Below, piece by piece: positions 4,618 to 48,102 of a stretch of DNA of 49,863 bases (positions are counted from its first letter, which is position 1; every line of letters begins with the position of its first letter). A program made the position numbers and the translations under genes. The notes below the pieces were generated by a model. That model was not told where the DNA came from and made no database searches. It saw only the letters and a list, made by a program, of their open reading frames with translations. Source of the DNA: Clostridiales bacterium (lineage in GTDB: Bacteria > Bacillota > Clostridia > Oscillospirales > Feifaniaceae). The stretch is taken from assembly GCA_012719075.1 (NCBI GenBank), contig JAAYBB010000063.1, positions 1 to 49,863 on the forward strand. Reading direction: 5' to 3'.

Positions 4618-4777
4618 GTAATGGATCAGTCCTCCAGTGTCGCCTCGGAACGGGGCGGCCGAGGTCGAGAATATGGATCGGGAACAGGGACCGAAATTCC
4701 CATCCGGCAGCAGAACTCTGCGGCCTGAAATGAAATTTGCCGCGCGGGGATGGGCCGCGGGGCAGGGCCGTGCGCCG

Positions 4778-4951
4778 CTGTGGTTTGTGCTGCGGTCGCC
4801 CGCAGTTTTGCACAGGGCTGTCGACGACGGCAACGCCGGAGGGCACCCGCCGATGGCTCGATGAACCCTCTCCTCGTCAGCCGGAGGAACCCGGCTCAGG
4901 CGCTCTTGGTGCGGGGGCTTTGCTGGGGAATGAGGCCTTGTCTTTTGCGCT
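4778..4951 (-). promoter_or_regulatory. glmS ribozyme (glucosamine-6-phosphate-activated self-cleaving riboswitch)
   Basis: On the minus strand the glmS leader contains the conserved core in order: A|GCGC at the expected cleavage site (between 4951 and 4950), GCGCC closing the next helix, GACGAGGAGAGGGTTCATCG, then a short loop and ATCGGCGGGTGCCCTCCGG. These match the catalytic core of known glmS ribozymes. A P4-like nested stem (CTGTG / CTGCGG with their complements) ends near 4778. Position directly upstream of glmS supports the call. Cleavage would destabilise the mRNA when glucosamine-6-phosphate is plentiful. The 3' boundary is approximate. Confidence 0.9.
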
Positions 4952-39601: not shown

Positions 39602-39905
39602 AACCGGTGCTTCTGAAGGCCGCACTATCCGGGGAGTTAGCGGTGCCCTGTACCCGCAACCCGCTGTAGCGGGGGAGAATTCCCACACGAGGGCCCCCTT
39701 TGTGCGGACTGCCCGGCGGGCGGTGGTGTTGAGAAGCAGGTCTCGCGCAATGGTCCTCCGTGAACCATGTCAGGCGGGGAACCGAGCAGCATTAAGCGGA
39801 TTCGAGCATGTGCCGCGAGGAAGCCTGTTTTGAGCCATCCCTGCCGGTTACGCGCATAACGGTCGGTTCGACTGTGGGTGTGCGGCCTTCAGAGGCACCG
39901 GTTTT
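39602..39905 (+). ncRNA. ffs: Signal recognition particle RNA, large Gram-positive form
   Basis: The ends pair over more than 20 bases (39602-39624 with 39880-39905), closing a ~300-base rod. The Alu domain reads GGGGAGTTAGCGGTGCCCTG and continues TACCCGCAACCCGCT, close to the B. subtilis scRNA. The apical domain IV is GTCAGGCG-GGGAACCG-AGCAGC with a GGAA tetraloop at 39778-39781 and the asymmetric loop bound by Ffh. It lies directly before dnaX, the usual Firmicutes position. Exact processed ends are uncertain. Confidence 0.95.
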
Positions 39906-45847: not shown

Positions 45848-47329
45848 TTATCGGGGCTGCGCAGGCGGCTGCAGCGCCACGGTCCTGGTGGCCACGCGGT
45901 CGCAGAAGGCGCGGTCGTGCTCCACAAACAGCAGCGTCGGGGCGTGCGCCAGAATCAGCTCCTCGATCTGCAGGCGGGAGAGCAGATCGATGTAGTTGAG
46001 CGGCTCGTCCCAGAGGTAGAGGTGGGCCGGCCGGCAGAGGCTGGCGGCCAGCAGCACCTTCTTCTTCTGGCCCTCCGAAAAGGTGGAGAGGTCCAGGTCG
46101 AACTGGCTGCGCGGCAGGCCGAGCTTTTTCAAAAACTGCAGCAGCAGCGTCAGGTCGGCGCCCTGCTGCGCCGCATAGTCGCGCAGCGGGCCGCAGAGGC
46201 CCTGCAGCTCCTGCGGCAGCGTGGAGAGCACAAGGTTTGCCGGGCTGCGCAGCAGCCCCTCGTGGGCCAGCGGCTCCCCCGCCAGCAGCTTGAGCAGGCT
46301 GCTCTTGCCGCTGCCGTTGGCGCCGCGCAGCGCCACGCGCTCCCCGCGTTCGACCCTCAGGTCCAGCGGCGCAAAGACCGGCCGGCCGCCGTGGGAGATC
46401 ACAAGGGCCCGCGCCTCGACCAGCAGGCGCTCGTGGTGGCGCAGCGGGTTCAGGCGGATGGGCTCGGCCGTCTCGACGTCCTGCAGCAGCGCCCGCTTCT
46501 CCTCGACCGCGCGGTCGCGCCGCGCCTCGGTGGCCTTGGCCCGCTTCATCATCTTGGCAGCCTTGTGGCCGACGTAGCCCTTGTCGGCGGCGCCGGCCTT
46601 GCTGCGCTCGACGCGGTCGGACCAGTCGGCCGTGCGGCCGGCCGCCTCGCCCAGCCGCGCGATGTCCCGGCGCAGCTGCCGGTCCCGCTCGCGCTGCTGC
46701 AGCTCCCGCCGCCGGGCGTTCTCGGCCCAGCGGGAATAACTGCCCCGCACCAGCTCGGGGCCGGTGTTGTTGAGGGCCAGCGTGTGGTCGGTACAGCGGT
46801 CTAAGAAGGCCCGGTCGTGCGACACCAGCAAAAAGCCCGGCTTGCCCCGCAGGTAGTCGCCCAGCAGCGCGCGCCCCTCGATGTCGAGGTGGTTGGTGGG
46901 CTCGTCGATCAGCGGGAAGTGGTCTTCGCGCAAAAACAGCGCCGAGAGCAGCACCCGGGTGCGCTCGCCGCCGCTCAGCGTAGAGAAGGGGCGCCCCAGG
47001 ATGTCGGGCGCCAGCCCCAGCAGCGAGAGCTCGCGCTGCAGCTGCCAGCCCTCGGCGCCGGGGCAGAGGCCCTCGAGCAGTGGGCCGGTCGCAAGCGAGG
47101 GGTCCTCCATCTCGTAGGGAAAGCGGACAAAGGGCATGGGCGACAGAATGCGGCCGCGGTGAGCCAGGCCGCCCTGCAGCAGCCGCAGCAGCGTGGTCTT
47201 GCCGCGGCCGTTGCGGCCGACCAGGCCGATCCGCCAGTCGGTGTCAAACTGCAGTGAGAGCTGCTCAAACACGTTTTCGGCGCTGCCCTCGTAGCCGAAG
47301 GTCAACGCCTCGATGGTGATTTGCGCCAT
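45848..47329 (-). CDS. ABC-F ribosomal protection protein, Lsa-type
   Basis: 493 aa with two nucleotide-binding domains and no membrane segments. The first has Walker A GRNGRGKT (38-45) and LIDEPTNHLD; the second has GANGSGKS, the signature FSEGQKKKVLLAASL and WDEPLNYIDLLSRLQ. The second pair and the linker with many Arg/Glu match the Lsa/Vga class of antibiotic-resistance ABC-F, which remove lincosamides, streptogramin A and pleuromutilins from the ribosome. Substrate range is inferred. AAGGAGG is eight bases before ATG 47329. An attenuator lies upstream. Confidence 0.9.
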   Translation of the reverse strand: MAQITIEALTFGYEGSAENVFEQLSLQFDTDWRIGLVGRNGRGKTTLLRLLQGGLAHRGRILSPMPFVRFPYEMEDPSLATGPLLEGLCPGAEGWQLQRELSLLGLAPDILGRPFSTLSGGERTRVLLSALFLREDHFPLIDEPTNHLDIEGRALLGDYLRGKPGFLLVSHDRAFLDRCTDHTLALNNTGPELVRGSYSRWAENARRRELQQRERDRQLRRDIARLGEAAGRTADWSDRVERSKAGAADKGYVGHKAAKMMKRAKATEARRDRAVEEKRALLQDVETAEPIRLNPLRHHERLLVEARALVISHGGRPVFAPLDLRVERGERVALRGANGSGKSSLLKLLAGEPLAHEGLLRSPANLVLSTLPQELQGLCGPLRDYAAQQGADLTLLLQFLKKLGLPRSQFDLDLSTFSEGQKKKVLLAASLCRPAHLYLWDEPLNYIDLLSRLQIEELILAHAPTLLFVEHDRAFCDRVATRTVALQPPAQPR

Positions 47330-47382
47330 GGCTTGTCCCTCCTTGTCAGGCGGCGCCGACGCGCGCCGCAGCCAATGAAAAA

Positions 47383-47415
47383 GCGGCGCGGGAAAGGTGT
47401 TCCTTCCCGCGCCGC
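47383..47415 (-). terminator. Attenuator terminator upstream of the ABC-F gene
   Basis: Stem GCGGCGCGGGAA / TTCCCGCGCCGC followed on the minus strand by TTTTT, 54 bases before the start codon. Its 5' arm is repeated upstream at 47466-47474. Confidence 0.88.
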
Positions 47416-47476
47416 AAAAGGTCATGCAGACGCACGGAGCCCCCCTGTGCAAAGGGGTGCGACAGCCTTCCCGCAT

Positions 47477-47516
47477 GGAAAAGCACAGGACAACTGTCCC
47501 GAACCTGTGTTTTTCC
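47477..47516 (-). promoter_or_regulatory. Leader hairpin (possible pause or anti-structure) before the ABC-F attenuator
   Basis: Stem GGAAAAACACAGG / CCTGTGCTTTTCC (one mismatch) begins 20 bases after the leader peptide's stop codon. A ribosome stalled on the leader would block its 5' side. Confidence 0.65.
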
Positions 47517-47535
47517 GAGGTTTGACGCTGCGGGG

Positions 47536-47547
47536 TCAGATGCGCAT
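47536..47547 (-). CDS. Three-codon leader peptide MRI
   Basis: ATG CGC ATC TGA preceded by AGGAG at seven bases, in the 5' leader of the ABC-F gene. Too short to be a protein; its likely role is to report ribosome stalling by antibiotic. Confidence 0.7.
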   Translation of the reverse strand: MRI

Positions 47548-47579
47548 TTTTTCACTCCTGTTATTCAACGGTTGGCCCC

Positions 47580-47608
47580 AGTATAGCACAGCCGCGCGGC
47601 CGGCGCAA
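47580..47608 (-). promoter_or_regulatory. ABC-F gene promoter
   Basis: On the minus strand TTGCGC (47603-47608), 17-base spacer, TATACT (47580-47585). Transcription from about 47573 gives a 240-base leader. Confidence 0.75.
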
Positions 47609-47620
47609 GCCGGAGGGGGC

Positions 47621-47884
47621 TCAGAGCTTTAAGATCAGGCGGCTGACGGCCAGCGCCGTCACGCCCGGAAAGCCCAGCACGGCGGCCGTGGCGATGGTCA
47701 GCAGGTTGATGCCGATCGGCAGCCCCAGCGGCGTGCCGACCAGGTTGAGCAGCACCAGCGAGAGCACGGCGCCCCCCATGCGCAGCAGCACGCCCATGAG
47801 CCGGCCAAGCGGCCCGGCCAGCAGCAGCACGGCAATCAGCCCGAGCACCGCCAGCACCGGCGCGAGCAGGATCCAGGTGTTCAT
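47621..47884 (-). CDS. bofA: BofA family protein (pro-sigma-K processing inhibitor)
   Basis: 87 aa, largely hydrophobic with about three membrane segments, and the family's C-terminal NLLTIATAAVLGFPGVTALAV (usually NxxTxxxxGxLGxPG). In Bacillus BofA holds SpoIVFB inactive until the forespore signal arrives. The ATG at 47884 overlaps the stop codon of the upstream gene (ATGA), so the two are translationally coupled. Confidence 0.85.
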   Translation of the reverse strand: MNTWILLAPVLAVLGLIAVLLLAGPLGRLMGVLLRMGGAVLSLVLLNLVGTPLGLPIGINLLTIATAAVLGFPGVTALAVSRLILKL

Positions 47885-48102
47885 CCGCACTCCCCCTTCT
47901 CTTGGCAGGCGGCCTGTTCGGCCTTGGCCTGTAAAATGACGGCGCTGATGCGCCGGTTGATCGAGATGCGCTCGTAGAACAGCGCCTCCAGCAGCGTGTC
48001 GTCGAGGGCCTCGTCAATGCGGGCGTCCAGCTCGATGAGCTCCCGCCGCAGCGAGGCCATGTGCTGACCGGCGCCATAGCCCTGTTGCCTGCACCTGCGC
48101 AA
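47881..48102 (-). CDS. DUF2508 (YaaL-like) protein
   Basis: 73 aa, helical and charged. The pattern DDTLLEALFYERISINRRISAVILQAK resembles the DUF2508 core, and its coupling to bofA mirrors the yaaL-bofA order of Bacillus. The start is TTG 48102 with GGAGG seven bases upstream. A CATAGGAT element at 48138-48145 could be a sporulation -10. Confidence 0.6.
   Translation of the reverse strand: MRRCRQQGYGAGQHMASLRRELIELDARIDEALDDTLLEALFYERISINRRISAVILQAKAEQAACQEKGECG

Follow-up and report, generated by a model that had tools for sequence, protein, structure and literature searches.

A putative ribosome-mediated transcription attenuator in the leaders of Lsa-type ABC-F genes from an uncultured clostridium and relatives in Clostridia and Paenibacillaceae

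In an uncultured clostridium, the leader of an Lsa-like ABC-F gene is probably a ribosome-mediated transcription attenuator that works as a three-way switch of the vmlR type, a reading to which we give a probability of roughly three in four. Its elements, their mutual complementarity and an order and spacing conserved among relatives can be read directly from the DNA. The gene lies on the minus strand at 45848-47329 of the window (the whole analysed stretch of 49,863 nucleotides), has an intact reading frame and is preceded by the Shine-Dalgarno (SD) sequence AAGGAGG (47344-47338). The encoded protein scored 587 bits against the NCBIfam Lsa family NF000167, below the cut-off of 750, 391 bits against the general ribosomal-protection-like ABC-F model (cut-off 380) and 126 bits against the CplR model (cut-off 780), and its best PDB match was Lsa(A) (7nhk, E 8.7e-111). 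With Lsa as both the best family and the nearest solved structure, the protein is by these matches Lsa-like, while corresponding to no named Lsa, and its gene is a probable antibiotic-resistance gene.

All of the minus-strand elements listed in an earlier note on this DNA were found where it had placed them. Transcription could start from a promoter-like site, TTGCGC-N17-TATACT (47580-47608; -35 box 47608-47603, -10 box 47585-47580), with a TG one base upstream of the -10 box. As three of the six -35 positions match the consensus, this is a plausible promoter with a weak -35 box; a promoter scanner called no promoter at this site, and several relatives carry TTGACA at the equivalent position. 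It is followed by a short upstream open reading frame (uORF, 47536-47559) consisting of the SD sequence AGGAG (47559-47555), a spacing of seven bases and ATG-CGC-ATC-TGA (47547-47536), encoding Met-Arg-Ile. A longer frame from the GTG at 47555 was rejected as the uORF because its start abuts the SD sequence with zero spacing. One base past the uORF stop, at +13 to +18 counted from the uORF AUG, lies CCCGCA (segment 1, 47529-47534), which is complementary to TGCGGG at 47475-47470. An internal hairpin (GGAAAA-A-CACAGG ... CCTGTG-C-TTTTCC, 47477-47516) stands between segment 1 and segment 2 (TGCGGGAAGG, 47466-47475), of which the nine bases GCGGGAAGG (47474-47466) repeat part of the 5' arm of the terminator. 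The latter, identified by a terminator scan (47378-47415, -30 kcal/mol), comprises a 14-bp stem (47415-47383) and five T residues (47382-47378). Its 3' arm CCTTTCCCGC (47397-47388) can pair with segment 2, which thus has two alternative partners, segment 1 and the terminator 3' arm. At the gathering score, no Rfam family was found in the leader of the window or in the loci of six relatives. Rfam matches at other positions of the window were a glmS ribozyme (RF00234, 89.8 bits, 4766-4915, minus strand) and a large bacterial SRP RNA (RF01854, 208 bits, 39620-39885, plus strand).

This anatomy predicts how promoter use, drug, ribosome stalling and read-through would be connected. In the absence of the drug, the ribosome would complete the three-codon uORF and depart, whereupon segment 1 (47534-47529), brought close by the internal hairpin (47516-47477), would bind segment 2 (47475-47470) and block its access to the terminator 3' arm. 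The terminator would then form, and transcription would end ahead of the ABC-F gene. A drug acting on the peptidyl transferase centre, probably a pleuromutilin, a lincosamide or a streptogramin A, would instead stall the ribosome on the first codons, so that segment 1 would be masked, segment 2 would be free to bind the terminator 3' arm (47397-47388) and the polymerase would read through. The antiterminator pairing between the repeat and the terminator 3' arm had already been proposed in the earlier note, and we find it to be a 10-pair helix that is mutually exclusive with the terminator. CCCGCA, which would act as the anti-antiterminator, is an element absent from that model.

The principle of such a switch is already known. 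In Bacillus subtilis, the mechanism of the vmlR leader has been shown experimentally: a three-codon uORF acts through an anti-antiterminator, an antiterminator and a terminator, and the toeprint of a 30S subunit on the start codon lies at +16 (PMC9226507). The window shares with vmlR the three-codon uORF, the antiterminator and an intrinsic terminator followed by an ABC-F gene, and its proposed anti-antiterminator would correspond to the one around the vmlR uORF. However, the vmlR uORF encodes MIN rather than MRI, VmlR belongs to another ABC-F subfamily, and a NusG-dependent pause and an SD-hiding hairpin are described for the vmlR leader (PMC9226507). The uORF of Clostridioides difficile cplR is exactly Met-Arg-Ile, the consensus of clostridial cplR leaders is MR[I/M], and drug induction through the MRI uORF has been shown (PMC10201436). 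There too a terminator lies ahead of an ABC-F gene in a clostridium, although CplR represents another subfamily and the cplR terminator stem, unlike that of the window, contains the SD sequence of the gene. Enterococcus faecalis lsaA, itself a member of the Lsa family, is also preceded by a short uORF (MAGN; PMC10201436), which differs in sequence and length from that of the window, the comparison here being one of uORFs. The suggested novelty of a minimal MRI leader consequently fails, since MRI is published for cplR (PMC10201436) and three-codon sensors are published for vmlR (PMC9226507), while the placement of a ribosome-mediated attenuator before an Lsa-type gene is well supported by anatomy and relatives. 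What the present comparison would add is the occurrence of the same switch before Lsa-type genes in many Firmicutes.

To assess chance, dinucleotide shuffles of the window leader were used. These seldom reproduced the nine-base repeat of the terminator arm (p = 0.004), an antiterminator helix at least 10 pairs long (p = 0.015) or a short ORF behind an SD sequence (p = 0.011, 1.1% of the shuffles), and the joint three-way complementarity reached p = 0.02. The energy of the antiterminator duplex was not significant (p = 0.23); because the region is G+C-rich and 23% of the shuffles reach the same energy, this measure was dropped as a test. The stem between segments 1 and 2, which has six pairs and lies inside the ribosome footprint, is by itself at chance level (p = 0.39), and support for segment 1 therefore comes from the relatives. 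Among the 51 terminator-like sites of the window, four are preceded at a distance of 60-230 bases by a short ORF with an SD sequence, and the site in the ABC-F leader has the highest score for three-way complementarity.

We then compared upstream sequences from 171 Lsa-type relatives, whose proteins are 44-58% identical to that of the window (nearest relative, 57-58%). Most of them have a short SD-preceded uORF at the same place. A joint search for the uORF, the pairing of segment 1 with segment 2 and the pairing of segment 2 with the terminator 3' arm was carried out on 159 distinct leaders including that of the window. It gave 118 candidates with all elements (window included), of which 93 reach p ≤ 0.05 against shuffles, with 100 shuffles for each leader and leaders that are not independent of one another. 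The complementarity is kept although the sequences of the leaders differ widely, and the arrangement precedes Lsa-type genes across many genera. As in the window, these leaders of Clostridia and Paenibacillaceae combine a uORF, a segment 1 just after the start codon, an internal hairpin, a segment 2 and a terminator; they differ in that most have uORFs of six to seven codons which contain segment 1 and end in Phe-Ser-Cys, or, in Paenibacillaceae, an AUG followed by a stop.

Counted from the AUG, segment 1 has its 3' end between +13 and +21 in 85 of the 93 leaders regardless of uORF length, which would place it under a ribosome stalled on the first codons. The uORFs themselves range from one to seven codons and their residues are variable. 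The Phe-Ser-Cys that longer ones often contain is the pairing segment TTTTCTTGC in codon form, and this consensus was accordingly rejected as a peptide signal. Since segment 1 mostly stays within this distance of the AUG whatever the length of the uORF, the quantity sensed is probably the occupancy of the first codons by a ribosome and not the peptide. Conservation among homologues, which the earlier note had named as a check, thus has two sides: the MRI peptide is not conserved, whereas homologues keep the location of the uORF, a pairing segment just past its start codon and a duplicated arm, a combination that favours a switch over a peptide-specific sensor.

The nearest neighbours of the window in the protein tree are L085, L010 and L011 (100/93), but this grouping is unsure, as the window and two of the three are long branches. 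The uORFs of these relatives (MRNTTC, MRMISRK and MRKA, respectively) are all short and start with MR, and L009, from the same family, has the full arrangement with ATGCGCAATAATTTCCGCTGA. The MRI uORF of the window therefore looks like a family uORF that an early TGA has shortened, leaving the pairing segment intact immediately beyond it. The three-way scheme was not significant in the leaders with MRK or MIR uORFs (L013, L113, L026, L100, L135 and L171), L020 being the exception. In the MRK leaders L013 and L113, a stretch further on (GCGCTCCTCTCAC) is complementary to the SD sequence and start of the uORF (GGTGAGAGGATGCGC in L013) and may thus mask the uORF, a layout unlike that of the other leaders. 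In L026, L100, L135 and L139, a terminator-like hairpin adjoins the ABC-F start and seems to include the SD sequence of the gene, as in cplR.

The shortest uORFs consist of an ATG and an immediate stop shortly before the pairing segment. They are found in 23 leaders, nearly all from Paenibacillaceae, and in L054 (L015, L017, L025, L029, L030, L036, L037, L042, L050, L052, L053, L054, L055, L060, L062, L065, L066, L067, L068, L071, L072, L076, L083 and L090). Their layout is an SD sequence, ATG-stop and the pairing segment TTTCTTGC, approximately 200-230 bases upstream of the ABC-F start. The identity of the stop (TAA, TAG or TGA) varies by species, yet a stop is always present. Cohnella xylanilytica (L024) has ATG-GAC-ATT-TCT-TGC-TAA in place of the start-stop, and the arrangement is absent from some Paenibacillus loci, e.g. 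L022, L034, L074 and L080. Start-stop uORFs would be missed by uORF4u because its default minimum is three codons (PMC10219788). In the literature searched, which takes in a minority of the subscription journals, no start-stop sensors were found in bacteria; nor was a description of an Lsa-type leader family of Clostridia and Paenibacillaceae, an absence that, given the incomplete coverage, is weak evidence. We consider it an evenly balanced proposition that a single broad attenuator family unites the Lsa-type ABC-F leaders of Clostridia with those of Paenibacillaceae and that its sensor is a ribosome held at the first codons, independently of the peptide, the MRI of the window being a shortened uORF of six to seven codons and the Paenibacillaceae form a bare start-stop.

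Folding of the window leader bears on whether the switch works well. When the stretch that begins 18 bases upstream of the uORF start and runs to the gene is folded, the stem between segments 1 and 2 coexists with the terminator. In transcripts ending at or before the terminator, the minimum-energy structure lacks this stem, which has a probability of approximately 0.11-0.18 and can be imposed at a cost of 1.9 kcal/mol. Segment 2 is hidden by a competing local hairpin (47484-47465). The terminator is more stable than the antiterminator by 6.4 kcal/mol, a balance less favourable than in 84 of the 93 leaders, and most leaders of Clostridia and Paenibacillaceae are better balanced in this respect. 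Furthermore, the terminator loop of the window has no paired bases of the kind that would let the antiterminator nucleate first and that are found in 77 of the 93 leaders. Because of the weak antiterminator, the empty loop and the competing hairpin, the switch may be tightly off or partly decayed. A leader that derives from the family but switches poorly, with a gene that is near-silent or expressed otherwise, would account for the unfavourable balance and the hairpin at 47484-47465; we nevertheless regard it as improbable, as the SD sequence, the uORF, segments 1 and 2, the terminator and the intact ABC-F frame have all been retained and nine of the 93 leaders have a balance equal to that of the window or worse.

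Control could also be exerted mainly on translation, as cplR would suggest, where the uORF stall is essential for induction and termination is not (PMC10201436). The stall would then chiefly free the ABC-F start, with termination secondary. The cplR stem contains the SD sequence of the gene, however, whereas that of the window gene lies outside the terminator stem, 34 bases past the T-run, and we judge translational control to be very improbable here. Least credible of all is an ordinary terminator of the upstream gene accompanied by a chance short ORF, since the terminator, though downstream of this gene on the same strand, lies approximately 200 bases past its stop and directly before the ABC-F gene, and the arrangement recurs before Lsa-type genes in many genera and is the best among the 51 terminator sites of the window. 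The upstream gene itself (47621-47890, minus strand) is BofA-like, resembling the inhibitor of pro-sigmaK processing (37 bits, cut-off 53).

If the attenuator reading of the window leader and its relatives is true, drug-inducible ABC-F resistance, governed by a shared RNA switch, would be widespread in uncultured gut clostridia, and constitutive behaviour could be a misleading guide to susceptibility. Comparing the leaders separates the constraint on the RNA from that on the uORF peptide and suggests that these sensors respond to a ribosome occupying the start codon. The start-stop uORF would, if true, be the smallest possible sensor.
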